Shown here: positions 1,321-19,970 of the stretch, in pieces
Numbering within the stretch: the first letter of the stretch is position 1
Layout: each line of letters starts with the position of its first letter
From: a virus
DNA: 20,696 bases
IMG/VR virus record: IMGVR_UViG_3300001460_006830
Coordinates: 1,143-21,838 of that record
Direction: 5' to 3' (one strand)
Program-made: the position numbers and the translations under genes
The notes under the pieces: generated by a model
The model's database searches: none
What the model saw: the letters and a program-made list of their open reading frames with translations, nothing else
Told to the model about the DNA's origin: nothing

Positions 1321-2026
1321 TCAAGAAATTAGACAGCATCAACAACAATTTTGGGAACTAGATGTTCACTACGAAAAAGATGTTGCAGGAATTGGTTCAG
1401 ATTTGATGTTCCAAAAAATATGGAATCAATATCCTAAAGATGACATATTTATTTTACACGCCGACATGAGTCCCCATCATGATGGCTGGTTTGAGGAGGT
1501 GCTTGCATATGTCGAGCAATACCCAAAAGCAGGAATGTTTGGTTGTTTGTTATTGTACCCAGCAAGAAACGAGAGTGGCGAACATTTCATACAGTGTGCA
1601 GGAGGAAAGTTCACTGACGGTAGACCAGATCACTTCGGAAGTGGACTTGTATTGGAAAACAGGTCAACGTTTAAATCAGAGCTGGAAATTGATTCAGGAC
1701 AGTACGATACCACGCGCTCCATCGCCTGGACAACATTTGGAGGTTGTTACATTAGACGGGAATTTATCGATTCCGTGGGCAATTTTGACCCCTCCTTTGA
1801 ATGGACATACAACAGAGACGTCGATTACTGCTTGTCTGGAAGACAAAATGGTTACAGCATCTATCAGATACCTGTACGACTCTATCACCACGAATCGCGG
1901 GATAACAAACGAATAAAAGACCAAAACAAAGCAAATATGGAAACGAGAAACCTCACACGTCTCCAGACGAAATGGGCAAACTCTAAATTTTACAAAACGC
2001 TGGACAAGGAGATAAAAAGTGGATAA
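1286..2026 (+). CDS. GT2-family glycosyltransferase
   Basis: This 246-residue protein is a GT-A fold glycosyltransferase of the GT2 type. The nucleotide-sugar/metal site appears as ILHADM with H58-A59-D60 in place of the usual DxD. The acceptor side shows TTFGGCYIRREFIDSVGNFD near 149-168, followed by a DVDYC-GRQNGY-I-V-YHHES pattern typical of rhamnosyl- and other GT2 enzymes. The ATG at 1286 gives a full-length domain and overlaps the previous gene by 35 bases. Base composition is unusual: blocks within 1621-1920 are about 40-52% G+C by hand count, against about 32% in the upstream gene, and CGN arginine codons are mixed in. That suggests more recent acquisition than its neighbours. The sugar and acceptor are unknown. 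Confidence 0.8.
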   Translation: MTVKIITPYVFDQEIRQHQQQFWELDVHYEKDVAGIGSDLMFQKIWNQYPKDDIFILHADMSPHHDGWFEEVLAYVEQYPKAGMFGCLLLYPARNESGEHFIQCAGGKFTDGRPDHFGSGLVLENRSTFKSELEIDSGQYDTTRSIAWTTFGGCYIRREFIDSVGNFDPSFEWTYNRDVDYCLSGRQNGYSIYQIPVRLYHHESRDNKRIKDQNKANMETRNLTRLQTKWANSKFYKTLDKEIKSG

Positions 2027-2237
2027 AGTGTTTATATCAAAAGAAGAACTTAGATCAGCGTTACAAAGTACACAACAAAAAGCTGGATTTTTTACTACAC
2101 TATTAGCTTGGTTCGGTTTCATTATTACTCTTTTATGGCTAATCCCTTTAGTAGTAATTTGGCTATTACTTTTTGTTATTTGTATTCCGTTTTATCTAAT
2201 TGACACACATATTTTAAGGAGAATCTTTAATGGGTAA
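2019..2237 (+). CDS. small two-helix membrane protein
   Basis: This 72-residue protein has a charged N-terminal segment of about 22 residues, then a long hydrophobic stretch from about residue 24 to 63 that can form two transmembrane helices (FFTTLLAWFGFIITLLWL and VVIWLLLFVICIPFYLI), and a short basic tail (HILRRIF). The GTG start at 2019 is supported by AAGGAG at 2006-2011 at suitable spacing; it overlaps the upstream gene by eight bases, and the methyltransferase gene begins eight bases before its end. No family is recognised. Its place inside a glycan-type operon suggests a membrane anchor or carrier-linked helper, but holin-like or other membrane roles are not excluded. Confidence 0.65.
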   Translation: MDKVFISKEELRSALQSTQQKAGFFTTLLAWFGFIITLLWLIPLVVIWLLLFVICIPFYLIDTHILRRIFNG

Positions 2238-2994
2238 ATTAAACCACGAGTGGGTAAAAGCCTCACTAGAAATGGCAGACAATGAGAGATCTAAACTATC
2301 AGAACGAGAGCGAGAGATTCACGGACTTAGTTCAACTAGGTTAAGATGTTTGATCAATAATCTTTGTGCTGCTGAAAAATGTAGCTATCTAGAAATAGGC
2401 GCATATAAAGGTTCTACTCTAATTGCAGCTGCACGAGGCAATGACGTAAAAGTTGTAGGAGTAGACAGCTTTCTATATGATGATAGAGAACCAAACAAGT
2501 GGGCTCCAGAAGGATTTATTTGGGATAATATGAAATCTCAACTAGAAGCTAACATCAATACATACCGACTACAACCAGATGTAGTAAACGGAGAGGACAT
2601 CTCTATTATACAATCAGACTTCAAAACAGCTGAATTACCTAAAAACACCTTTAGTGTTTGCTTTTTTGATGTTAGTCCTGTGAACTATGAATCATATGAT
2701 GCTTTTTTTGAAAATGTTTTACCTGCTTTAACGCAAAGTAGTGTTGTTGTTTTTAGTCAACAATCTAATAATGATCACGCGGAACAGCTTAATGAAGCTC
2801 TTAGAAAGCACGAAGCTAAAGTTAACTTACAATTCTCTGAAGTTAGAATATCAGGAACTAACGCAGACTCTACAAAATACTACAGCGGAGTTAGAGTTTT
2901 AGGTTTTATTAAAAAAGCTGTTGCTGTACCTGTTAAGGCACCAGTAAAAGCAGCAACTAAACCTACAAGTAATACAAAGGTGAATAATGGCTAA
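2230..2994 (+). CDS. class I SAM-dependent methyltransferase
   Basis: This 254-residue protein has a Rossmann methyltransferase core. Motif I is YLEIGAYKGSTL with E55, G57 and G61, and an acidic residue for the ribose appears in VVGVDSF (D79). FDV followed by SYDAFFENVLPAL and VVVF resembles motifs IV-V of the methyltransferase_24/macrocin O-methyltransferase-like group. The first 45 residues are helical and charged, and the last 30 form an Ala/Pro/Lys/Thr-rich tail (VPVKAPVKAATKPT), probably disordered. It overlaps the upstream membrane-protein gene and the downstream glycosyltransferase by eight bases each. Context suggests O-methylation of a sugar, but a small-molecule or protein acceptor is possible. 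Confidence 0.72.
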   Translation: MGKLNHEWVKASLEMADNERSKLSEREREIHGLSSTRLRCLINNLCAAEKCSYLEIGAYKGSTLIAAARGNDVKVVGVDSFLYDDREPNKWAPEGFIWDNMKSQLEANINTYRLQPDVVNGEDISIIQSDFKTAELPKNTFSVCFFDVSPVNYESYDAFFENVLPALTQSSVVVFSQQSNNDHAEQLNEALRKHEAKVNLQFSEVRISGTNADSTKYYSGVRVLGFIKKAVAVPVKAPVKAATKPTSNTKVNNG

Positions 2995-3838
2995 AAAGAA
3001 AAGCGTAATTAGTCTTATTAGTTATGATGCTAATCGTTTTCTAGCGCAATCTATAAAACGATATTATAACTATGTTGATGAAATAGTACTTGGAATTGAT
3101 AAAGATCGTATAACCTGGAGTGGTAATAACTTTTCGTTTGATGAGGATTCTCTTTGGAGCGAGCTTTCACAAATTGATAGAGATAGCAAGATATCAATTA
3201 TCGAAGAAGACTTTCACCAATCAGCTGTTGCTATAGAAAACGATAATTATGAACGTAACTTTTTAAAAGAACAGTGTTCTTACGACTGGATCTTTTCTTT
3301 TGATGCTGACGAAATGCTAGTTAATGCTAAAGATTTCTTTCTCAATTTTTGTCCTCTTGTAGAAAAATACTACAATAAAACAGATCTTTGTATGACTTGG
3401 GCCACTCCCTATAAAGTTGTTGAAGATGCAGAGGGCAACTCACAAACACTTATGATTGCTAACACTGATGCGTCTCCTTTTTTTGGAGAAAATCAAGGAT
3501 TTGTTACCTCTAAAGAGAGTACTTTTACTTATGCTCGTTGGACAAACAACTCAGCCGCTGGGGGTAATAGACTATTAAGTCCGTTAGTCGCGCTTCATTG
3601 GAGTTTGTGTCGTCCTGAGAAAGAGTTGCATGAAAAAATTAATAATATTGGACATTCAGATTTAGTGGAACAAGATCCTTTTTATCAAATTTGGTCTCAA
3701 GTAACTTGGGATAATTATCACGAACTAGAAAACTTTAAAACATCAGGACTAGGTGGTTCACAGTGGCCAACCCTATTTGCTGTACCGTCAGAGCAAGTTG
3801 AAAGTTATATTACTCAGCATTTAGGGAGAGCTTACTAA
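2987..3838 (+). CDS. GT2-like (GT-A fold) glycosyltransferase
   Basis: This 283-residue protein looks like a GT-A enzyme. An N-terminal strand (VISLISYDANRFLAQSIKR) is followed by a turn with VDEIVLGID, and the metal/donor site is DWIFSFDADEML with D106-A107-D108. The pattern of a question of who and where (short strand, NYVDEIVLG) is like glycosyltransferases that begin with a self-contained donor domain. An HWSLCRPEKELHEKI segment toward the C-terminus may bind the acceptor. It overlaps the methyltransferase by eight bases, and its stop shares one base with the next ATG (TAATG), consistent with translational coupling. The sugar and acceptor cannot be read from sequence. Confidence 0.7.
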   Translation: MAKKKSVISLISYDANRFLAQSIKRYYNYVDEIVLGIDKDRITWSGNNFSFDEDSLWSELSQIDRDSKISIIEEDFHQSAVAIENDNYERNFLKEQCSYDWIFSFDADEMLVNAKDFFLNFCPLVEKYYNKTDLCMTWATPYKVVEDAEGNSQTLMIANTDASPFFGENQGFVTSKESTFTYARWTNNSAAGGNRLLSPLVALHWSLCRPEKELHEKINNIGHSDLVEQDPFYQIWSQVTWDNYHELENFKTSGLGGSQWPTLFAVPSEQVESYITQHLGRAY

Positions 3839-5007
3839 TGAATATTGAATTTGTTGGAAAATTTTATGATAATCATTCTTTGACTATTATCAATAGAAAT
3901 ATCGCTCTTATCCTTAGTGAGAATGATAATATAGATTTGTATATAACACCTTTAGATGACTATACTCCAGACGCTGGATTAGATAAAAAAGTTGTTAAAA
4001 AACTTAAAGATATTAGTGCAAAAGAAATAGATGGTAATAGCTATCCAGACATACAAATTAGACACTCGTACCCACCTATATGGCAATGGCCGACAGACGA
4101 GCGAACTAAAGTAGTTTATATCCAACCTTGGGAGTATCCTAAATTACCCTTTGAGTGGCAACATAAGTGGGAAACTTTTGCAGATCATGTGATTGTACCC
4201 TCTAACTATATTAGGGATATAGCTGTGAGAGGCGGATTAAACCCACAATCTATTACGGTAGTACCTAACGGTTATAATGAACAACTGTTTAATAAAGAAG
4301 AGCCAAAAAACTTACCATATGGTATCGATAAAAATAAATTTAACTTTGTTTATGTTGGTAACTCTCAGTGGAGAAAAGGTTTAGACTTACTTATCAATGC
4401 TTGGCATAAGTGCTTCAGGTCTTATGATAATGCTCGCTTGATCATTAAAGATAACCCCGCAATCTACGGTAAAAACGGTGTTCTCAATGAACTTGTTAAA
4501 ATGCAATATAAAACTGAATGTGCTCCTGTAATCTATATTGATGATAATATTTCAGACGAAGATATGGCAGATATTTTTAAAGCATCAAAAGTAGTAGTAC
4601 ATCCTTATAGAGCTGAAGGTTTTGGTATGCATATTCAAGAAGCAGTAGCGTGTGGTTGTGTACCTATCTTACCTGATACAGGTCCTCATCAAGATTTTAT
4701 TCCAGAAGAAATTGGTATTAGAATTCAAACAAATCAAACAGTAGTTGACATATCTGCAGACGAAGTTTTTGCTCAAAAACCAGGTGACTCGTTTACCATG
4801 ATGAGCTCTCACACAATCGTTAACGAACCTAGTGGACAAAACTTAGAAAAAACGCTACAATGGATGTACCATTCTCATGAAAAGAAAAATCATTTTGATA
4901 GAGTTAGCGCACTTGATATGCCAAATACTTGGGAGAATGTAGCAAAACAATATGTGGAGGTACTTTTAAATGTCGGAAAATCAGACAAGCCCAACCGATT
5001 TAGATAA
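3838..5007 (+). CDS. GT4-family glycosyltransferase (GT-B fold)
   Basis: This 389-residue protein is a retaining GT-B glycosyltransferase. The N-terminal half has IPSNYIRD-like (VPSNYIRDIA) and VVPNGYNEQLF segments; the C-terminal half opens with FVYVGNSQWRKGLDLLINAW. The E-x7-E donor-binding signature is HPYRAEGFGMHIQEAVACG with E260 and E268. These are textbook features of GT4. The ATG overlaps the preceding stop by one base (TAATG). The next gene, iscA-like, starts 38 bases before this one ends. In this cassette it is the best-supported glycosyltransferase; the product remains unknown. Confidence 0.85.
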   Translation: MNIEFVGKFYDNHSLTIINRNIALILSENDNIDLYITPLDDYTPDAGLDKKVVKKLKDISAKEIDGNSYPDIQIRHSYPPIWQWPTDERTKVVYIQPWEYPKLPFEWQHKWETFADHVIVPSNYIRDIAVRGGLNPQSITVVPNGYNEQLFNKEEPKNLPYGIDKNKFNFVYVGNSQWRKGLDLLINAWHKCFRSYDNARLIIKDNPAIYGKNGVLNELVKMQYKTECAPVIYIDDNISDEDMADIFKASKVVVHPYRAEGFGMHIQEAVACGCVPILPDTGPHQDFIPEEIGIRIQTNQTVVDISADEVFAQKPGDSFTMMSSHTIVNEPSGQNLEKTLQWMYHSHEKKNHFDRVSALDMPNTWENVAKQYVEVLLNVGKSDKPNRFR

Positions 5008-5503
5008 ATGGTTTGAAGAATTAGAAGCTAGTTTAGACAAAGACGAGGTAGCTAGGCTAGCCCAAAGCGTACTAGAAAGGCACCAACCTACTCTTGAGGA
5101 TAAAGTTCTAGCAGATTTTCACGGTAATGCTCCTATTATAGAATCTGAGTTTCATGGGGTGTTACCTACTATTACACCGAAAGCACAGATATTTATTAGT
5201 CAAAATCTAGAGGAAGGGCAGCTGTTTAGATTCGGTGTAGCAGGAGGCGGTTGTTCTGGTTTTAATTATTTATTTGAGCCTACAGAAACTACTGATGCAG
5301 AAGATATAATTTTTTGTGAATCTCCTAAGTCTGTTATTGATCCTGAAAGTTTAAAATTTCTATACGGGTCTGCTATTGATTTAGAAGATTCAGGAATGAA
5401 TAAAATGTTAAAAGTAGTCAATCCAGGAGCAAGAGCCTCTTGTGGTTGTGGGACTAGCTTTGCTTTTGATGAGGAGTTGTTAGATCTATATGAAAACGTT
5501 TAG
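4970..5503 (+). CDS. IscA/HesB/ErpA-type iron-sulfur cluster carrier with N-terminal extension
   Basis: The C-terminal ~110 residues of this 177-residue protein form an A-type Fe-S carrier. All three ligand cysteines are present: C95 in GGGCSGFNY and C158/C160 in ASCGCGTSF, with the family's usual spacing of about 63 residues. Such proteins carry iron or [Fe-S] clusters to target enzymes in the cytoplasm. A typical family member is about 107-120 residues; this one has an extra 60-65 residue, acidic, helical N-terminus (LDKWFEELEASLDKDEVARL) of unknown role. The gene sits between a glycosyltransferase and a 2OG-Fe(II) oxygenase, overlapping both, with GGAGG upstream of its ATG. HesB-like genes are known in marine phages; the client here is unknown. 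Confidence 0.88.
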   Translation: MSENQTSPTDLDKWFEELEASLDKDEVARLAQSVLERHQPTLEDKVLADFHGNAPIIESEFHGVLPTITPKAQIFISQNLEEGQLFRFGVAGGGCSGFNYLFEPTETTDAEDIIFCESPKSVIDPESLKFLYGSAIDLEDSGMNKMLKVVNPGARASCGCGTSFAFDEELLDLYENV

Positions 5504-6122
5504 TTGGATTGTTAACGAAAGTAATATACCTTGGTTAGAGTTGGATATAAAGTATCCTTATGGAGAAATGTACGAGGAAGCTAAAGCAATTAAAGAACTA
5601 TTCGTAAAACACAGAGATCAAGATGGTAATGGTGGGTACAGACATAAAGGTTGGCGTAGTTTATGTATTCACGGAATTGATTCTGATAAAACTAATCATT
5701 ACGAGCAATATGGCTATAAGTCTAATAAAGAGACACCGTACATCTGGACAGAAATAGCCAATAAATGTCCTGTCACGACACATTTCTTTAAAAATACATT
5801 CCCTTTCAAAAGTTATTTTAGGCTTAGATTTATGCTTTTAGAACCTGGAGGTTATATTACCCCCCATAGAGATTCCTTTGACTCTAAGTTATCACCAATT
5901 AACATGGCACTAAATCATCCAAAAGGTTGCTTAATGAAAATGAGCAATCATGAAGGGTATGTGCCTTTTTCTCCTGGAAAAGCAATGTTACTTGATGTAG
6001 GTAATGAGCACGCTTACATTAACAAAAGCGATGAAGATAGATATCATATTATTGTTCACGGCATCAAGACAAAGGAATATGAAGAATTAGTTGTGAGAAG
6101 TTATGAAAAGAATAATGGGTAA
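5490..6122 (+). CDS. 2OG-Fe(II) dioxygenase, aspartyl/asparaginyl hydroxylase-like
   Basis: This 210-residue protein has a double-stranded beta-helix core with the iron facial triad H126-x-D128 (EPGGYITPHRDS) and H174 (DVGNEHAYIN), and R184 in DRYHIIVHG as the likely 2-oxoglutarate salt-bridge residue. The wording around these residues (INMALNHPKGCLMKM and GKAMLLDVGNEHAYINKS) resembles the Asp/Asn beta-hydroxylase group. It should use O2 and 2OG to oxidise a substrate in the cytoplasm. It overlaps the IscA-like gene by 14 bases and the next, unknown, gene by 20. Substrate could be a protein side chain, a nucleotide or a sugar. Confidence 0.82.
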   Translation: MKTFSWIVNESNIPWLELDIKYPYGEMYEEAKAIKELFVKHRDQDGNGGYRHKGWRSLCIHGIDSDKTNHYEQYGYKSNKETPYIWTEIANKCPVTTHFFKNTFPFKSYFRLRFMLLEPGGYITPHRDSFDSKLSPINMALNHPKGCLMKMSNHEGYVPFSPGKAMLLDVGNEHAYINKSDEDRYHIIVHGIKTKEYEELVVRSYEKNNG

Positions 6123-7482
6123 AAACAAAAATTATGTAGTAGGTATATATGACGATACCCGAATGTCACATAATTTAAGCCAAGCACAAAAGAATAAAGA
6201 AATAACCGAATTCTTTACTAGATTTAAATATTTCGGCCCAATGATTGTCAAAGAAAACATTAATGATGTTTTAGATGAAGCGTTGAACTATGATGTAGAC
6301 TATTGTTTAATTCAAAGTGTGGGACACATTATAAAAGAGGCAGCTTTTTTTACTTTTATTGAAAAATGGATAGCTAAACAAGATTTTTTTATTACTGGGC
6401 ATATTATGGACAAGAATAAAAAGAACCTTAACAACCCCAGTGGTAAAGAAGGTTATTACGGATTACACAAACAATGTATGTTAGTAAATCTTAAATACTA
6501 TAAAAAATTTGATAAACCAGTATTTGGTACTAAAAGTTCTGAAAAAGAATTCGTAACTAAGGCTGAGAGACATGTGAAAGATATACATGATGATTATACA
6601 CCTCTGTCTTTGAAACCAACAGAAGAACTTACTGTGTGTACACCTTTAGTAGATGGGTGGAATTTTATTAATACTAGTTTAGCTAATGATCTAACGGTAT
6701 ATAATTTTCACCCTAAAATCAGAGAACACAAACAATTTATATACCCAACAACAAGTGCCGCTGACTTGGAACACCAATTATCTTGGATTACTAACATAGT
6801 TGACTATGCCCAAGACTGTGTGTTTTTTTGGAATACAGAAAACTACTCTGATTTAAAATATGTAAATATAGAAAAACCGATAGATAAATTATATGCTGTT
6901 GCTGCAAGTTTTAAACCTAATATGATTTTAAATCACTATGATTTTACTGATGATTGTGAAGTTATTTACTATGATTATAGTAAGTCAGCTTTAGCGTTTA
7001 AAAAAATGTTAGTCAGAGAATGGGATGGAGAAGACTATCCTAAGTTTCTTGACTATGCTCAAAAGAAATTTAGAATTAACGAAACAGGTGGGAACGGCAC
7101 TGAGTATTTATCTAGAAAAGAGTTATGGGAGAGAGAATTAAAATGGTGGGGTTCTGAAAAAGCAATTAAAGAACATTGGGATAGATATAGAACGTTGAAT
7201 CATAAATATGTTCACTGTGATATATGTAAAACTCCAGAAAAAATTACTTCGTTAATCACCCCTAATGATAACTCAGTTATATGGTGGAGTAATGCTTTTC
7301 ACACTGTAGGCGCTCAGTATTTAAGAGGTGTATCAGGTGTTAAAGCTTGTTATGAGACTTGGTTAAAACAGATTGGTAATAAAAATCCTAATATATGGAT
7401 CTTAGGTAAAGACTATTTAGATCGACCAATAGAAGGCAATAGATTAAAGGATTATTTAAATGCTTATAATAGCCAAGACTAA
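6103..7482 (+). CDS. protein of unknown function (459 aa) between two 2OG oxygenases
   Basis: No family is confidently recognised. The N-terminal third (YDVDYCLIQSVGHI, then DFFITGHIMD, GYYGLHKQCMLVNL and KPVFG) has the alternating strand/helix feel of a donor-binding or GT-A-like domain, but no clear DxD is seen. A DIHDDYTPLSLKP segment separates it from a second part. The C-terminal part is aromatic-rich (FFWNTENY, NSVIWWSNAFHT, NPNIWILGKDYLD). No signal peptide or membrane helix is evident. ATG at 6103 overlaps the upstream gene by 20 bases; ATG at 6115 is an alternative. The next oxygenase overlaps its end by 23 bases, so all three genes are probably co-translated and may act in one pathway. 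Confidence 0.8.
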   Translation: MKRIMGKNKNYVVGIYDDTRMSHNLSQAQKNKEITEFFTRFKYFGPMIVKENINDVLDEALNYDVDYCLIQSVGHIIKEAAFFTFIEKWIAKQDFFITGHIMDKNKKNLNNPSGKEGYYGLHKQCMLVNLKYYKKFDKPVFGTKSSEKEFVTKAERHVKDIHDDYTPLSLKPTEELTVCTPLVDGWNFINTSLANDLTVYNFHPKIREHKQFIYPTTSAADLEHQLSWITNIVDYAQDCVFFWNTENYSDLKYVNIEKPIDKLYAVAASFKPNMILNHYDFTDDCEVIYYDYSKSALAFKKMLVREWDGEDYPKFLDYAQKKFRINETGGNGTEYLSRKELWERELKWWGSEKAIKEHWDRYRTLNHKYVHCDICKTPEKITSLITPNDNSVIWWSNAFHTVGAQYLRGVSGVKACYETWLKQIGNKNPNIWILGKDYLDRPIEGNRLKDYLNAYNSQD

Positions 7483-8044
7483 AATTACGAGTGATAACTC
7501 ATGGTTAAACCAGTTAAATTTTAAAGGTCACGATGATTTAGATTTAGCAGGTAACGTAGATGCAGTATCAATTAAAAGTAATGATGGTGGTATTCATAGT
7601 TTTTATAGAAACAAACCTGTCGAAAACCCCGAAGATTTTAAATATACAAAATACTATAAATTATGTAAACCTTTAATAGATTATTTTGATTTTGAGACTA
7701 CACGGGTTAGAGTACATAAACAAGAACCAGGACAAACCATCCCTATTCATACAGATGATAATAATATCAACGCGACAAGCAATGAAGATTTTAGACTTAG
7801 AGCAGTCACAGCGTTAACCGAAAGTGATGATTTTATTTATCAGTTTAATCTTGAAGGTTCTGTTGAACAATTTAGTCTTAAAAAAGGTGAAACAGTGTTG
7901 TTTGATCCTGATTTAGTAGGACACGGAATGATAAATAAATCAGAAACAGAAACTAGGTACTCATTAGTACAGATATTTAAAGCATACCCTGTCTCCCCTT
8001 GGTTAAAAGACTTTATCAACACTGAACAAACGGTAATTTTATGA
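7460..8044 (+). CDS. second 2OG-Fe(II) dioxygenase
   Basis: This 194-residue protein is another double-stranded beta-helix oxygenase. H97-x-D99 lies in PGQTIPIHTDDNN, the distal His is H155 in FDPDLVGHGMIN, and R166 in ETRYSLVQIF is a likely 2OG contact. Similarity to the oxygenase at 5490 is at the motif level only, so they look like separate members rather than a recent duplicate. ATG at 7460 overlaps the unknown 459-residue gene by 23 bases, and the PC4-like gene starts at 8041 with an ATGA overlap. It closes the long co-directional cassette. Substrate is unknown. Confidence 0.78.
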   Translation: MLIIAKTKITSDNSWLNQLNFKGHDDLDLAGNVDAVSIKSNDGGIHSFYRNKPVENPEDFKYTKYYKLCKPLIDYFDFETTRVRVHKQEPGQTIPIHTDDNNINATSNEDFRLRAVTALTESDDFIYQFNLEGSVEQFSLKKGETVLFDPDLVGHGMINKSETETRYSLVQIFKAYPVSPWLKDFINTEQTVIL

Positions 8045-11938: not shown

Positions 11939-11944
11939 TCACAA

Positions 11945-11965
11945 CTTAACTTTTAAAAGGTTAAG
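11945..11965 (+). other. AT-rich hairpin upstream of the terminator
   Basis: CTTAAC (11945-11950) pairs with GTTAAG (11960-11965), extendable inward through a G-U and A-T pairs, immediately before the GC-rich terminator stem. It may protect the message 3' end or help termination. Tandem hairpins of this kind often follow abundant transcripts. Confidence 0.4.
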
Positions 11966-11967
11966 CA

Positions 11968-12000
11968 GGGATGGTGGTAACGCCATCCCTATTTTATTTA
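11968..12000 (+). terminator. intrinsic terminator with GUAA tetraloop
   Basis: GGGATGGTG (11968-11976) and CGCCATCCC (11981-11989) form a nine-pair stem (eight Watson-Crick, one G-U) closed by GTAA, a GNRA-type tetraloop. It is followed by TATTTTATTTA (11990-12000), a U-rich run. This is the best terminator in the window and isolates the HTH-repeat gene from its downstream neighbours. Confidence 0.85.
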
Positions 12001-12018
12001 GAATGTAGGTAAAAATGT

Positions 12019-12324
12019 ATGACACCCTTTCTGTTAGATGACTTAGAAGATTCTACTCTTGACGCTGTTCTATCTATGGAGCCAAAAGTAAGAGTAGAGT
12101 ATTATCGTAAAATAGCTAGAAAATATTTTCCAGATGTAAAAGAAAACTCTGATGAGTTTGAAAACTTACTTGAGTATTATAATAGTTCTTTTTATGTAGA
12201 AAAGATGTATAGAACTAATAAGTTTTTTCAAGAAAAATTTACAATAGTATATACTGATAAAGGATTTATACGTAACATCATTGCAGATATGTATTATGCC
12301 GATGATGATCTCATAACTCATTAA
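12019..12324 (+). CDS. small acidic protein of unknown function
   Basis: This 101-residue protein is acidic and helical, starting with an Asp-rich segment (LLDDLEDSTLDAVLSMEPK), then a basic helix (VRVEYYRKIARKYFPDVK), and ending in Tyr/Asp-rich sequence (MYYADDDLITH). No family is recognised and no membrane segment or signal peptide is present. ATG at 12019 is used because the ATG at 12015 hits a stop within nine codons; AGGT at about 12007 is a weak Shine-Dalgarno. It sits between a terminator and a promoter, so how it is transcribed is unclear (read-through or a promoter not recognised here). Confidence 0.55.
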   Translation: MTPFLLDDLEDSTLDAVLSMEPKVRVEYYRKIARKYFPDVKENSDEFENLLEYYNSSFYVEKMYRTNKFFQEKFTIVYTDKGFIRNIIADMYYADDDLITH

Positions 12325-14539: not shown

Positions 14540-14709
14540 AATCAAAACTAGCAGCATTCACCCAATGGATGGAAACAGGATACTATAAGAAAAACGGTCA
14601 AATTGTTTGGGATTTATATTTACAGCTCATAAGATACTGGGGTTGTATGTCAAAAGAAGAAAAACGATTCATGGATAGTAGTAAAAAAACATTGTTGATA
14701 GGTAAATAA
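14536..14709 (+). CDS. 57-residue protein between helicase and primase
   Basis: A short frame starts at ATG 14536, four bases overlapping the helicase stop (ATGA), and ends at TAA 14707-14709, one base overlapping the primase ATG. The 57 residues (KSKLAAFTQWMETGYYKKNG onward) are basic and aromatic, with a Trp-rich helix (VWDLYLQLIRYWG) and a charged C-terminus (SKEEKRFMDSSKK). Perfect junctions on both sides make it a real gene, not a gap. It might modulate helicase-primase contact; no family is recognised. Confidence 0.65.
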   Translation: MKSKLAAFTQWMETGYYKKNGQIVWDLYLQLIRYWGCMSKEEKRFMDSSKKTLLIGK

Positions 14710-15566
14710 TGGATTTAGTTGATCTTTTAAATCGAAGAGGTATTGAGTACCGCAAAACTAATAATCCATCTGAGATTTTAATTAGTTGTACTAGTGGAGA
14801 GCATATAGATAAATCTCCTAGTCTCTCATATAACTTAGAAAAAAACATGTTTCACTGTTGGAGTTGTAACTTCTCTGGCGGAATAACTAAGTTTATGCAG
14901 TCTATAGGTGAGACTATTAGACTAGATGTTGATAGTAAACAACCTTTTAAAATAAAAAAACTTAAAGATAAAATCAGAAAACTAGTAGAAATTGATGAGA
15001 TTCAATTACCAGAAGAACGTCACATCTATAATGGAGAGTTTAAAGGTATAAGTGGGAGTACCATGAAAGAGTTTCAAGCATTTACAACTCAACACTTGGG
15101 ACTGAAAGATTATATTTGCATACCTGTCTATCAATTTGGTAAACTTAAATTCATAGAAGGAAGATATGCAGGCTTAGTAGCAGGAAAACCTAAATACTAT
15201 CGTAGACCTCAAGGTGCTCCTGTATCCGAGATATTATTTCCGCTAGATAAAGTTAAAAATACTAACTATGTGATATTAGTTGAGGGTATCTTTGATATGT
15301 TGAATATGTGGCAGTTAGGGTATAAGAATACTTTATGTATATTTGGTGCATCAAACTTTAATAGAAAGAAGCTAGAAATACTTGATCGTATAGGAGTAAC
15401 AAGGGTTGATATATTAATGGATCCTGATGCTCCTGGTCAAATGGCTGCTACTAAGATTGCCGAGCTACTTAATACTCGTGATATTTTTTCACGCAATATT
15501 AAACTACCAGTAGGTACAGACCCGGGCGATATAAATCAAAGGCAAGCAGAAAAGTATTTAAAATGA
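14709..15566 (+). CDS. DnaG-like primase (zinc finger + TOPRIM)
   Basis: This 285-residue protein has an N-terminal zinc-binding domain with C27, H32, C50 and C53 (ISCTSGEH, then MFHCWSCNFSGG), and a TOPRIM catalytic core: E192-G193 in LVEGIFDML and D238-P-D240 in LMDPDAPGQ, followed by helix AATKIAELL. It lacks the long C-terminal helicase-binding domain of DnaG and is about half its length. It synthesises RNA primers. Coupled to the upstream 57-residue gene and the downstream zf-CHCC gene (ATG at 15563 overlaps its stop by four bases). Confidence 0.85.
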   Translation: MDLVDLLNRRGIEYRKTNNPSEILISCTSGEHIDKSPSLSYNLEKNMFHCWSCNFSGGITKFMQSIGETIRLDVDSKQPFKIKKLKDKIRKLVEIDEIQLPEERHIYNGEFKGISGSTMKEFQAFTTQHLGLKDYICIPVYQFGKLKFIEGRYAGLVAGKPKYYRRPQGAPVSEILFPLDKVKNTNYVILVEGIFDMLNMWQLGYKNTLCIFGASNFNRKKLEILDRIGVTRVDILMDPDAPGQMAATKIAELLNTRDIFSRNIKLPVGTDPGDINQRQAEKYLK

Positions 15567-15742
15567 GTGGCATAGCAAGAAATGACTTATTTAAAAAGCA
15601 GGCTGCAGGAGAAAAAACTGAAGTTGTTGTAGTAACTACAGACACTGTGTCCTGTTCAAACGATCATCCAAAAGTGTATTATAAACTACAAAATAAAAAA
15701 GCAGTATGTGAATATTGCGGAAAGGTGTTTATTAATGAATAG
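15563..15742 (+). CDS. zf-CHCC (NDUFS6-like) small zinc-finger protein
   Basis: A 59-residue protein starts at ATG 15563, overlapping the primase stop (ATGA), and ends at TAG 15740-15742. Its second half reads C31-S-N-D-H35-P-K-V-Y-Y...V-C49-E-Y-C52-G-K-V-F, the layout of zf-CHCC (C-x-x-x-HP-x-[VI]-Y-x-[LI] ... C-x-YCG-x-x-F). That domain is known from mitochondrial complex I subunit NDUFS6 and bacterial homologues. The N-terminal half is a basic then Val-rich strand (KTEVVVVTTDT). It probably binds Zn2+. Its place between primase and polymerase suggests a replication or redox-related role, but no function is established. The polymerase start overlaps it by eight bases. Confidence 0.72.
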   Translation: MSGIARNDLFKKQAAGEKTEVVVVTTDTVSCSNDHPKVYYKLQNKKAVCEYCGKVFINE

Positions 15743-17987
15743 TGTGTGCTTTGTGTTTGCAAGTGCGGCAGAAAAAAATCCTGACAAAGTTATTAACAAA
15801 TATTTGAAAGGCGTAGAATACGATACTAAGTTTCTACACTCAGGATCCAAAGAAAAAATTCTTAAGAAAGATATCGACCTAGATATGGACGAGCTTACAG
15901 GCTATAAAATCATGTGTCCTATTGGCGCGGATGCTCTTAAGTATGTTGCTGGTATGACTGGTATTCAAAAATACAATGGTGTATTTATCGAAAAGAAGTA
16001 TCTTCCTATTATGCATCCTAATATTTGTATTATCAAACCTCAAATGGAAGATGAAATTCAACGTGCTTTTGCACAGATTCCTAAACTACTCTCAGGCGAA
16101 GATTTGCAAACACACGAAAAAGACTACTGTTTCATTGAAACTCAAGGACAGCTAGACACTTACATAAAAGAGCTAGAAGACGCAACAACACTAGTAGTAG
16201 ATATTGAGACAACTTCTGTATCTCCACATACGGGTGTTATTCTAGGCATTGCTATATCTACTAGACCGCACCAGGGTTTATATGTTTCAAGCGAGCTTGT
16301 TTATAAACACAAACAGTGGTTTCATGACTTATTTAAAGATAGAAAATGTATCTTTCATAATTCAAAATTTGATACTAACTATATGGAAACAGAAATTGGT
16401 TTTGAATTTCCAGACTATGAAGACACTATGCTACTACATTACTGTCTAGAAGAATCTGTGGGTACTCATGGATTGAAACCTTTAGCGTTACGTTTTACTG
16501 ATCTTGGTGATTACGAAAGAGAGTTAGACGACTATAAGAAATCTTGGGCTCGTAAGAATAAGGTTAAACTAGCAGACTTTAATTATGGCATGTTACCAAG
16601 TGATATCTTAGCTCCTTATGCTTGTAAAGATGCTGATGCTACTTTTCAGCTATATATGAAATTCTGGCCTTTAGTAGAAAAAAGCGAAGAGTTCTTGCGA
16701 CTTTACAAAGATATTCTTATGCCAGCCACACATGCTATGAAAAGACTTGAAAAGAATGGTGGCCCGATTAATATTGAACAAGTCACCCATCTTACAGAAC
16801 AGTACACTATTGACATGGAAGAGTGTCACGAAGAAATTATGATGAGTGATGCAGTTCAACGATTTGAACGTACTCAGGGTAAAGACTTTAACCCTAATTC
16901 TACTTATCATCTACGTGAACTGTTCTTCAATATTCTTAGCATGAAAGTAACTAAGAAGACAGAGACAGGGGCTCCTTCAACAGATAAAGAAGTTCTTGCA
17001 AATATGGGGCACCCTCTAGCAGATGCGATTCTTGATCTAAGAGAAAAGAGTAAGCTAGCTGGAACTTATATATCTAACATTAGAAAAGGAGTAGATAAAG
17101 ATGGTCGGCTTCGTTCTGGTTTTAATATTCACGGTACTACTTCTGGGCGTTTATCTAGCAGTGGAAACCTCAACTATCAGAATATTCCACGCGATAACAA
17201 AGACATCAAAAAATTATTCAGAGCAAGACCAGGATACAAGATAATTCAGTGTGACTTAGGAACAGCTGAGGTATACTATGCAGCTATGTTATCAGGAGAT
17301 CAATTCTTACAAAAAGCTTTTATTGATAAACTCGACTTCCACTCGTATGTAGCCAAACAAATGTTTAATCTAGATTGTGACGTTGACGAAGTTAAGAAGA
17401 TATACCCAGCACAAAGACAATATGCTAAAGCTATTACTTTTGGCATTATGTACCAAGCAGGTCCTGCAAAAATTGCTGAAACAGTTAATAAAGATGCTAA
17501 GTCTGGAGAAGAAATATCTATTCCTCAGTCTAAGCAATTCATTAATAAGTACTTCTCAGAAGCAAAAGCTCTAAAAAAGTTTATTGACGGGTCAAACTCA
17601 CAAATAGAAAATCATGCTTTTATTTATTCTTTCTTTGGTCGTAAGCGCAGACTACCAGAAGCAAAATCTCCTAACCCAGGTGTATCTAAACACGCAATTC
17701 GATCTGGAGTTAATTTCTTAGTTCAATCTGTTGCTTCTGATATTAATATTCTAGGCGTAGTTGATCTTATTAAATGGATTGAAGATAATGACTATCTTGA
17801 TGCCATTAAACCATTTACAGTAGTACACGATTCTATCGTATCTGAAGTTAGAGAAGACTTGGTAGATGATTATATTGAGAATGCTCGCAAATGTATTCAA
17901 ATAGATCGTGGCTTATCAATTCCAAACTGTCCTATAAAAGTAGATTTCGAGATCGGGCCTAGTTGGGGTGAGCTTGAAGACTTATAA
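15735..17987 (+). CDS. polA: family A DNA polymerase with N-terminal UDG-like domain
   Basis: This 750-residue replicative polymerase has three parts. The N-terminal ~120 residues (IMCPIGADALKYV at 59-71 and PIMHPN around H94) resemble the uracil-DNA glycosylase fold found at the head of SPO1-type polymerases. No GE-x-PG motif is visible, so repair activity is unlikely. A 3'-5' exonuclease follows: D156-I-E158, FHNSKFDTNYM (motif II) and YACKDAD (motif III). The polymerase shows motif A CDLGTAE with D507 and E512, O-helix AKAITFGIMY with F569 at the place of E. coli F762, and motif C VHDSI with H698-D699-S700. The second acidic residue of motif C is Ser. Start at ATG 15735 is preferred over GTG 15708 because AAAGG lies upstream at about 15720-15724. 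Confidence 0.88.
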   Translation: MNSVCFVFASAAEKNPDKVINKYLKGVEYDTKFLHSGSKEKILKKDIDLDMDELTGYKIMCPIGADALKYVAGMTGIQKYNGVFIEKKYLPIMHPNICIIKPQMEDEIQRAFAQIPKLLSGEDLQTHEKDYCFIETQGQLDTYIKELEDATTLVVDIETTSVSPHTGVILGIAISTRPHQGLYVSSELVYKHKQWFHDLFKDRKCIFHNSKFDTNYMETEIGFEFPDYEDTMLLHYCLEESVGTHGLKPLALRFTDLGDYERELDDYKKSWARKNKVKLADFNYGMLPSDILAPYACKDADATFQLYMKFWPLVEKSEEFLRLYKDILMPATHAMKRLEKNGGPINIEQVTHLTEQYTIDMEECHEEIMMSDAVQRFERTQGKDFNPNSTYHLRELFFNILSMKVTKKTETGAPSTDKEVLANMGHPLADAILDLREKSKLAGTYISNIRKGVDKDGRLRSGFNIHGTTSGRLSSSGNLNYQNIPRDNKDIKKLFRARPGYKIIQCDLGTAEVYYAAMLSGDQFLQKAFIDKLDFHSYVAKQMFNLDCDVDEVKKIYPAQRQYAKAITFGIMYQAGPAKIAETVNKDAKSGEEISIPQSKQFINKYFSEAKALKKFIDGSNSQIENHAFIYSFFGRKRRLPEAKSPNPGVSKHAIRSGVNFLVQSVASDINILGVVDLIKWIEDNDYLDAIKPFTVVHDSIVSEVREDLVDDYIENARKCIQIDRGLSIPNCPIKVDFEIGPSWGELEDL

Positions 17988-18474
17988 GGATATTAAGTAT
18001 CCTTTTTTTGGGTTATATAAAAAACCAGAAAAGATTACTTTTAGCTTAACAAAAATTTTTGTACATAGAACTCTACAGAGTCATCAAGAAACCATAGATG
18101 ATAAGTCTTTAGACGGAGATTATTTTGCAAGACTATTACAGATAGATAAACGGCTAACGTTTGATTGTACCTGTAAAAATTTAGCACAATTAATTTTTCA
18201 AAGACCTAAATGGGGAATGGATTCTCAAGCGAGACCTCATGATATATCCGATATGTCTTATCATACTTCTTTAAAACTTCCCGTAAAAAAAGTAAGAGAA
18301 AATTTTGTATGGTTTGATAAAATTTCTTATCCGTTTGAAATACCAACACAAGAAGACTTAGAGATACCAGAAGATGTTTATGGAGTTTTAATAAGTTTAG
18401 AAAATGAATGGTTTTTAAGGGAATTTACCCTAAATGATAAAAATATAGGGTTAAGAAAGAAAATATTATTATGA
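17968..18474 (+). CDS. protein of unknown function (168 aa)
   Basis: No family is recognised. The 168 residues are mixed, with a basic aromatic start (YKDIKYPFFGLYKKPEKITF), a segment with FDCTCKNLAQLIFQ, a long polar central stretch (DSQARPHDISDMSYHTSLKL), and a Pro/Glu-rich stretch (EIPTQEDLEIPEDVY) toward the end. No signal peptide or membrane helix is visible. The GTG start at 17968 overlaps the polymerase by 20 bases; TTG at 17974 is possible too. Coupling with the P-loop kinase downstream (ATGA) suggests they are expressed together. Confidence 0.6.
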   Translation: MSLKTYKDIKYPFFGLYKKPEKITFSLTKIFVHRTLQSHQETIDDKSLDGDYFARLLQIDKRLTFDCTCKNLAQLIFQRPKWGMDSQARPHDISDMSYHTSLKLPVKKVRENFVWFDKISYPFEIPTQEDLEIPEDVYGVLISLENEWFLREFTLNDKNIGLRKKILL

Positions 18475-18914
18475 AGATTTTAATATGCGGGTTACCAGGT
18501 AGCGGTAAAAGTACATTAGCAAAACCTTTTGCTAACCTTATCGGGGGTGTTTACTTAAATGGTAATTCAATCAGAACTCAACACGATGATTGGGACTTTA
18601 GTATCAAAGGAAGGTTGCGTCAGGCACTACGTATGGGGCATATTGCAGATGGTATAGTGATGGCAGGCAAGATAGCAGTAGCAGACTTTATTTGTCCAAC
18701 ACAGGTTGCTAGAGATTGGTTTAATCCTGATTATACTGTGTGGATGGATACTATAAAAGAAAGTGAATACCACGAGACAAACGTCGTATTTGTAAAACCA
18801 GATCATTATGATTATCACGTAGCAACATGGTTCAAAGATACACATGCAGAATTAGTAAAAGTAGTAAATAATTATATGCTTGCACAGTCTGGTAAACCTA
18901 CAGAGAGATTATAG
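18471..18914 (+). CDS. APS-kinase-like P-loop kinase
   Basis: This 147-residue protein opens with Walker A GLPGSGKST (7-15) and continues with LNGNSIRTQHDDWDFSIKGR, RQALRMGHIADGIVMAGKIA and FICPTQVARDWFNPDYTVWMD. This resembles the CysC/adenylylsulfate kinase layout (GD-x-VR, FS-x-x-x-R, helix, then a strand ending before R). The residue usually Asp in the substrate loop is Asn (NGNS). It is shorter than typical APS kinases (near 200). It could phosphorylate APS or another small substrate. It lies between an unknown gene and a cupin, both also uncharacterised. Confidence 0.68.
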   Translation: MKILICGLPGSGKSTLAKPFANLIGGVYLNGNSIRTQHDDWDFSIKGRLRQALRMGHIADGIVMAGKIAVADFICPTQVARDWFNPDYTVWMDTIKESEYHETNVVFVKPDHYDYHVATWFKDTHAELVKVVNNYMLAQSGKPTERL

Positions 18915-18930
18915 TGGTTTTTGATTATAA

Positions 18931-19254
18931 ATGCAAATAAGTAAACTTAAAAATGCGGGAAAAAATGGTTGGTACATTGGCGACTTTAATGAGGCGATAG
19001 TAAGGTCAACTGCTGTAGAAGTATGTTATAGCACAATAAAACAGGGATATACAGATCCTCACTATCATACTAAATGTACTGAAATTCTTTTAGTTGTCAG
19101 AGGCAAAGGCACTATAAACGGTGCAAAAATAAAAAAAGGTGATATAGTAGTCATCAAGCAAGGCGAAATAAATGATCTTGTCGCTATAACAAAAAAATTC
19201 ACCGCTGTAGGAGTAAAAATTCCTGCAGGTGGGAATGATAAGGTTAGAATATGA
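18931..19254 (+). CDS. cupin-fold protein
   Basis: This 107-residue protein is one cupin domain. The metal site appears as H44-Y-H46 with E51 (DPHYHTKCTEILLVVRGKG), and the second strand set has KKGDIVVIKQGEINDLVAI. Such small cupins bind Fe, Zn or Mn and serve as dioxygenases, isomerases or regulators; the short length matches a stand-alone sugar- or ligand-binding cupin. Only 16 bases separate it from the upstream kinase, and no clear Shine-Dalgarno is present there. It overlaps the NADP+ reductase (ATGA). Substrate unknown. Confidence 0.7.
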   Translation: MQISKLKNAGKNGWYIGDFNEAIVRSTAVEVCYSTIKQGYTDPHYHTKCTEILLVVRGKGTINGAKIKKGDIVVIKQGEINDLVAITKKFTAVGVKIPAGGNDKVRI

Positions 19255-19970
19255 TAAAGTTAATAGTTACGGAAGTTCAACACTACTGCAAATCAACGTT
19301 TAGAATACGCACAGAGCGCCCTAACACGTTTCGTTTTACTGCTGGCGAATTCGTCATGATTAGTTGTAGAGAAACAAGTGTTAAGCGTGCATACAGTATC
19401 ACCAGCGGGCCAGGAGATGACTACTTAGAGTTTTTAAGTATTAATGTACCTAAAGGAGAACTTACCAAAGAACTTAGCAGATATGAGCCTGGTGATACGC
19501 TGTATATGAACGAGCGTAGTACGGGTACACTTACACTGGCTAATATTGAACTTGGAGGAAACTTATGGATGTTTGCCACGGGTACAGGGATTGCTCCCTT
19601 CATAAGCTTGTTAAGAGATCCAGAAACATTTGAAAGATTTGATACAGTCAACTTAGCTTGGTCTGCTAGAACAAGAGCCGAGCTTAAATCTTATCATAAG
19701 TTTTTGTTATCACTAGACGGATATTTTAATTACTATCCAACAGTAACACAAGACGAACCAGCGCTAAGAATACTCTCTGGTAGAATTACTGATCACATAG
19801 ATAATGATGTTTTTTGGAAGTTTATTCGACCAGACTCAGATAAAATAATGGTATGTGGCAATATGGATTTTAATAATGATATGAAAAATAGATTTATTGG
19901 GATAGGATTTACTGAAGGCAGCAAGCGCAGTGCAGGAAACTTCTTACAGGAGAAAGCTTTTGTCTCTTAA
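19251..19970 (+). CDS. ferredoxin/flavodoxin-NADP+ reductase
   Basis: This 239-residue protein matches the bacterial Fpr family, about 10-30 residues shorter than usual. FAD contacts lie in R46-A-Y48-S49-I-T-S; the NADP+ region is ATGTGIAPFISLLRD (T110-F117), with a CGN pattern (VCGNMDF) and the family C-terminus GFTEGSKRSAGNFLQEKAF ending in Val-Ser, typical of bacterial Fprs (GFTEGS...E-x-AFV). It transfers electrons between NADPH and ferredoxin or flavodoxin in the cytoplasm. A phage copy could supply reducing power to Fe-S assembly, ribonucleotide reduction or other host enzymes. AAGG near 19240 precedes the ATG, which overlaps the cupin stop. Confidence 0.88.
   Translation: MIKLIVTEVQHYCKSTFRIRTERPNTFRFTAGEFVMISCRETSVKRAYSITSGPGDDYLEFLSINVPKGELTKELSRYEPGDTLYMNERSTGTLTLANIELGGNLWMFATGTGIAPFISLLRDPETFERFDTVNLAWSARTRAELKSYHKFLLSLDGYFNYYPTVTQDEPALRILSGRITDHIDNDVFWKFIRPDSDKIMVCGNMDFNNDMKNRFIGIGFTEGSKRSAGNFLQEKAFVS

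Follow-up and report, generated by a model that had tools for sequence, protein, structure and literature searches.

The stretch of viral DNA analysed here encodes a complete ferredoxin/flavodoxin-NADP+ reductase (Fpr) within the replication operon of a phage, and this protein is a genuine and probably active member of a familiar enzyme class in a viral context that has been little described, its activity being predicted from its sequence and structural model. The stretch, referred to as the window, comprises 20,696 nucleotides and forms the end of a viral contig of 21,838 bases (IMG/VR record IMGVR_UViG_3300001460_006830, a 21.8-kb fragment). We consider it likely that positions 19251–19970 specify a soluble, FAD-containing FPR of the bacterial type, of the kind known from R. 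capsulatus and Azotobacter, that this protein belongs to a family long kept by marine phages, and that it would act as an NADPH:ferredoxin/flavodoxin oxidoreductase supplying Fe–S and radical enzymes during infection. We infer the activity, the direction of electron flow, the carrier and the clients from sequence and fold, conserved residues, selection, a viral clade, the replication context, a ferredoxin operon in relatives and the candidate client genes. The window contains the following features:

4970–5503, plus strand: A-type (IscA/ErpA-like) Fe–S carrier, N-terminally extended by about 65 amino acids
13151–14539, plus strand: DnaB-like replicative helicase
14709–15566, plus strand: DNA primase (Toprim, CHC2 zinc finger)
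15708–17987, plus strand: family A DNA polymerase (PolA), nearest to T5-like phages at about 41% identity
18471–18914, plus strand: P-loop kinase of 147 amino acids, weakly APS-kinase-like
18931–19254, plus strand: small cupin-fold protein of 107 amino acids
19251–19970, plus strand: fpr, complete, 239 amino acids, assigned by domains, PDB match, motifs and model
19251–19514, plus strand: FAD-binding half of fpr (codons 1–88) with the RAYS motif at codons 46–49, of the phage's own T5-like lineage
19560–19970, plus strand: NADP-binding half of fpr (codons 104–239) with GTGIAPF and the EKAFV C-terminus, of T4-like-phage origin
19930–20694, plus strand: ResIII/DEAD-type helicase, overlapping the 3′ end of fpr and cut by the contig end

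The boundaries of the fpr reading frame are exact (ATG to TAA, 239 codons in an ORF check of the window), and its product matches the Pfam families NAD_binding_1 and FAD_binding_6/8, all above their cut-offs. Pfam and an AlphaFold model built with 36 viral homologues (pLDDT 90, pTM 0.89) agree on the two-domain FNR fold, that is, a FAD-binding β-barrel and a Rossmann-like NADP domain. The best PDB fold match of this model is the R. capsulatus FPR 2bgj (TM 0.91), and in a sequence comparison another R. capsulatus FPR entry, 2bgi, is the closest in the PDB (E 1e-44). With the FPRs of R. capsulatus and A. vinelandii (2bgi, 2vnk, 1a8p, 6rr3) the viral protein shares the fold (TM ~0.91), the RAYS motif at the FAD, GTGIAPF, two arginines on the NADP side (R140, R178) and the EKAFV C-terminus; it differs from them in sequence (~38% identity), in length (239 against ~257 residues, with deletions in the NADP half), in having W137 where most bacterial rows have histidine, and in the placement of its gene in phage replication or metabolic clusters. 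The top NCBIfam model is PRK10926, ferredoxin–NADP(+) reductase (E 2e-30), but its score of 105.8 bits stays far below the equivalog cut-off of 390 bits and rules out an E. coli-type equivalog: The E. coli/Salmonella FPR (PRK10926; 1fdr, 3fpk) has the superfamily and the predicted reaction in common with the viral protein, yet the match is weaker and the viral chain ends in EKAFV in the style of R. capsulatus.

The initial annotation had credited the product with the complete FAD, NADP+ and C-terminal motifs of a functional Fpr, a claim that the 2bgi match, residue conservation, dN/dS ratios, model and fold uphold in silico. R46, Y48, S49, G111-T112-G113, A115-P116-F117, R178, C202-G203, E234, A236, F237 and V238 are identical in all 84 aligned viral homologues, R140 is kept in 79 of the 84, and position 235 is lysine (as in the window) or arginine throughout. 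The FAD-binding motif RxYS, here R46-A-Y48-S49, recurs in 84/84 viral and 55/55 bacterial rows, and the NADP domain of the window protein contains the motifs GTGxAPF (as GTGIAPF) and CG. It also has both R140 and R178, which are presumably the arginines that bind the 2′-phosphate of NADP, and the C-terminal EKAFV, which places an aromatic residue near the flavin. W137 sets the viral rows (84 of 84) against the bacterial ones, where histidine occupies this position in 51 of 55. The viral fpr copies evolve under purifying selection: Pairwise dN/dS ranges from 0.03 to 0.42 with a median of 0.13 (689 pairs).

Within the window, fpr is the third gene in a run of kinase, cupin and fpr downstream of the polymerase, primase and DnaB-like helicase genes, and the stop codon of the cupin gene and the start codon of fpr share four bases (ATGA). 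Because its own record is a virus contig and the upstream genes encode a DnaB-like helicase, a primase and PolA, the fpr DNA is assigned to a phage. The same gene order is found in a sister phage (L006), where it continues beyond the point at which the window's contig ends, with genes for products resembling gp32 and a glycosyltransferase, for a radical SAM protein (located ~3.9 kb beyond the beginning of fpr) and for a 2OG-oxygenase. At L006:1204–2283 this phage has an amidinotransferase-like gene (by eye) that, together with one more gene, is inserted relative to window positions ~11940–12019; relatives of it occur in L007 and L008. The kinase gene of the window (18471–18914) has homologues at L003:9093–9536, L009:9002–9484 and L006:9005–9448, and in T5-like phages as well as in contigs rich in radical SAM genes, fpr is preceded at a distance of two to three genes by an APS-kinase-like P-loop gene.

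Judged from alignments and trees, fpr itself is an intragenic mosaic, its FAD half stemming from the phage's own T5-like lineage and its NADP half from T4-like phages. Codons 1–88 share 82–85% amino acid identity with L006, L012 and L013, members of the window phage's own group; starting at codon ~104, the closest relatives are the T4-like phages L001 and L002, with 92–93% amino acid and mostly 88–97% DNA identity. A clade with L001/L002 is rejected in the FAD-half tree (p 0.005) and a clade with L006/L012/L013 in the NADP-half tree (p 1e-8), p-values that serve as a guide, the groups having been named after the identities were seen. The switch point lies in a highly conserved segment, TGTLTLANIELGGNLW-ATGTG, which would offer the most favourable site for homologous recombination. 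This exchange of half a gene across the divide between T5-like and T4-like phages, probably in shared hosts, shows that metabolic genes of this sort can travel piecewise from one phage group to an unrelated one. An exchange of halves of the same sort appears, in the alignment only, in L003 and L009. A mosaic gene could also come from a chimeric assembly, in which case fpr would be an artefact, or else host DNA, and no phage gene; we regard this as extremely improbable. The gene is flanked on either side by phage DNA collinear with L006 (84–86% DNA identity), the exchanged part sits within a single open reading frame and, at mostly 88–97% identity, is no copy of its nearest donor, and many viral loci have a member of the Fpr family beside gp43 or gp45. 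An assembly chimera as the source of the mosaic is unlikely given the collinear flanks, the single frame and the divergence from the donor.

The initial annotation had stated that such reductases are not standard phage genes, which is correct for cultured phages: PHROGs holds no match to the window Fpr, BFVD no convincing viral structure matching its model (best TM ~0.3 in a fold search), and the inspected INPHARED hits are bacterial. We rejected the INPHARED matches as cultured-phage homologues, two opened records looking bacterial by eye. One of the hit stretches (L265) contains nosD-like and nosZ-like genes and another (L264) an endonuclease III gene (by eye), and the gene annotations of the Acinetobacter MD-2021a and Salmonella records are in bacterial style. 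The opened stretches of OQ572413.1 and MT837753.1, both labelled phage, resemble bacterial chromosome. The statement fails, however, for uncultured marine phages, in which fpr is common: A profile scan of IMG/VR returned 179 candidate loci, the best 80 of which were fetched and left 38 distinct proteins at 90% identity. Their genes lie in T4-like genomes (adjoining gp43 or gp45), T5-like genomes, jumbo phages, contigs with rows of radical SAM genes and contigs of 172–316 kb, and the scanned flanks of 16 of the 36 non-redundant loci contain gp43 or PolA. Fpr is widespread in uncultured, mostly marine, phages, and the family is apparently undescribed; gene content and one named bacterial relative point to the marine origin of most sources.

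Searching a bacterial genome collection yielded mainly alphaproteobacterial Fprs, and in a tree with these, a sample bounded by the search patterns used, the viral Fprs form one group on a branch with 100/100 support and a length of 0.72, apart from the sampled alphaproteobacterial proteins. Two bacterial rows, from a Pelagibacteraceae genome and a gammaproteobacterial MAG, are nested in the viral clade on long branches. The position of fpr among viral genes on viral DNA and the grouping of its viral homologues mark it as a virus-encoded metabolic gene. The Pelagibacteraceae Fpr (L095:3989–4699) is at most 60% identical to viral Fprs and its context looks chromosomal; with just 2 of 147 genomes positive, SAR11-order bacteria were discarded as regular carriers of the viral-type Fpr. 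A second, bacterial-like viral lineage of Fpr is seen in two T4-like records (L260, L261; ~53% identity to the Roseomonas type), in the former next to a glutaredoxin-like gene.

Bacterial FPRs transfer electrons from NADPH via FAD to a one-electron carrier. During infection, the phage enzyme would accordingly take a hydride from NADPH, split it into single electrons on its FAD and pass these to a ferredoxin or flavodoxin, whereupon the reduced carrier would feed Fe–S-dependent and radical enzymes encoded or needed by the phage: the A-type carrier and SufT/PaaD-like protein of Fe–S assembly, radical SAM enzymes and perhaps also class I ribonucleotide reductase (RNR). The carrier would be the host's in the window phage and a phage-encoded [2Fe–2S] ferredoxin in some relatives. 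Four viral contigs contain an operon in which a [2Fe–2S] ferredoxin gene precedes genes for a SufT/PaaD-like protein and an A-type carrier, and the three longer ones (80, 136 and 307 kb, the latter two very similar to each other) encode Fpr as well; Fpr and ferredoxin share a record in G014, G048 and G049. The operon was noted at L082:1474–2481 and L090:10001–11077, and its ferredoxin has no match in INPHARED. A search for partner carriers in related phages thus returned a ferredoxin in three Fpr records and none in the others: Among Fpr records, most of which are fragments, a Fer2 ferredoxin was not detected in 45 of 46, flavodoxin (PF00258) was not found in 45 and a Bfd-type ferredoxin (PF04324) not in 21, so the latter two were dropped as phage-encoded partners. 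The window, from a source genome that is itself a 21.8-kb fragment, has no ferredoxin or flavodoxin gene. Because none of the three carriers was detected in most Fpr records, the partner is more likely to come from the host, and the window phage's Fpr probably uses such a host carrier. The Bfd result also bears on a reading in which Fpr, like Pseudomonas FprA acting with Bfd and bacterioferritin, would mobilise iron that is then built into phage enzymes or virions: The P. aeruginosa Fpr (2qdx) is of the same enzyme class and iron-using enzymes abound in Fpr phages, but with no Bfd-type ferredoxin in the 21 records we judge this role very improbable.

Turning to the clients of the proposed electron supply, radical SAM and other Fe–S enzymes need low-potential electrons. 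Radical SAM genes occur in 11 of 45 Fpr records, several of which have 5–18. Rows of them were seen in L003 (five in tandem at 1637–8024), and the large records of L017 (275 kb) and L081 (172 kb) hold 18 and 15, respectively. Since Fpr records of 236, 101 and 93 kb have no radical SAM gene, these enzymes were rejected as a universal client. The window has an A-type carrier gene 14 kb upstream of fpr (4970–5503), a possible functional partner of Fpr, and such carriers are present in 12 of 31 Fpr records and in 8 of the 9 above 80 kb. Among records of at least 50 kb they occur in 10 of 16 with and 1 of 6 without Fpr, a link that is not exclusive and whose one-sided Fisher p of ~0.07 was worked out by hand on a non-independent sample with a small control of T4-like records picked by NrdB; we therefore do not take this non-significant excess as proof of Fpr function. 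From the IscA-like carrier and the oxygenases the initial annotation had drawn the idea that the phage manipulates iron/redox supply: Its first part gains circumstantial support from the carriers in 8/9 records above 80 kb and from the ferredoxin–SufT–IscA operon in three Fpr records, weakened by the non-significant excess, while its second part is unsupported. 2OG-Fe(II) oxygenases draw their electrons from 2-oxoglutarate and need no ferredoxin reductase, and for this reason they are not plausible clients of Fpr.

In bacteria, FPRs have been connected with the response to oxidative stress, and a phage Fpr could likewise counter such stress or balance NADPH/NADP+ in the infected cell, as is thought for the host FPR, with no dedicated phage clients. 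Most relatives do lack a phage carrier and some large records lack radical SAM genes, but the recurrent co-occurrence of fpr with Fe–S assembly genes and, in some phages, with ferredoxin makes this role quite unlikely in our view. Alternatively, Fpr might mainly serve dNTP synthesis, keeping the diiron-tyrosyl cofactor of class I RNR active together with ferredoxin or flavodoxin, which its placement in the window's replication operon and near DNA polymerase in many relatives would then reflect. NrdB was found in 5 of 31 Fpr records, namely in all five searched ones above 100 kb, and a flavodoxin–RNR link has been proposed for phage 0305phi8-36 (PMC9405906). However, NrdB is usual in T4-like phages regardless of Fpr (3 of 20 control records picked by NrdB have Fpr), at loci with known coordinates nrd genes do not adjoin fpr, and the window fragment contains no RNR, so that we hold this alternative to be unlikely.

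It is already known that marine phages of the T4-like kind can have genes for Fe–S assembly and for radical SAM enzymes: Nishimura et al. (2017, PMC5332604) describe marine viral sets with A-type carrier, IscU, PaaD, glutaredoxin and up to 12 radical SAM genes, in T4-like marine phages similar to some Fpr phages and in the same Fe–S context. The text of that paper makes no mention of a reductase, and Fpr (with ferredoxin in a few records) would add the electron supply to these sets. For the Microcystis jumbo phage PhiMa05, a ferredoxin (ORF1) and a ferredoxin–NADP reductase (ORF48) are annotated (PMC8093824), as are both proteins in some Fpr phages here, a comparison at the level of annotation; PhiMa05, however, is a cyanophage, and its genes were read as photosynthetic electron transport. 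The flavodoxin of phage 0305phi8-36 has been characterised and works with a bacterial flavodoxin reductase (PMC9405906), but it is a single-electron carrier and not a reductase. The same paper cites its authors' earlier finding that genes for P450 redox partners, including ferredoxin and flavodoxin reductases, had turned up in no described virus genome, and our literature search, which left most subscription papers uncovered, returned no viral Fpr family outside cyanophages. The phage Fpr, in some genomes with its ferredoxin, is a candidate for the missing link between host NADPH and Fe–S/radical SAM enzymes. More tentatively, marine phages of several unrelated groups may share a modular redox kit for their own NADPH-driven Fe–S/radical chemistry, conceivably made up of Fpr and, in some genomes, ferredoxin, a SufT/PaaD-like protein, an A-type carrier and radical SAM arrays, with Fpr and even its halves exchanged between groups.

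A PTPS/QueD-like gene is found near fpr in 8 of 36 loci. In neither G007 nor G012, both with this layout, was a radical SAM gene seen that could encode QueE, and the 7-deazaguanine pathway with QueE as client was therefore rejected. In L018, L030, L071 and others, a second recurrent context has the PTPS/QueD-like gene directly before fpr and a UvdE-like UV endonuclease gene directly after it, followed farther along by an A-type carrier and a giant structural gene. Finally, a protein of 508 amino acids without a Pfam match (L069:6961–8487) is encoded close to fpr in 20 loci and, by eye, resembles tRNA-guanine transglycosylase/DpdA.
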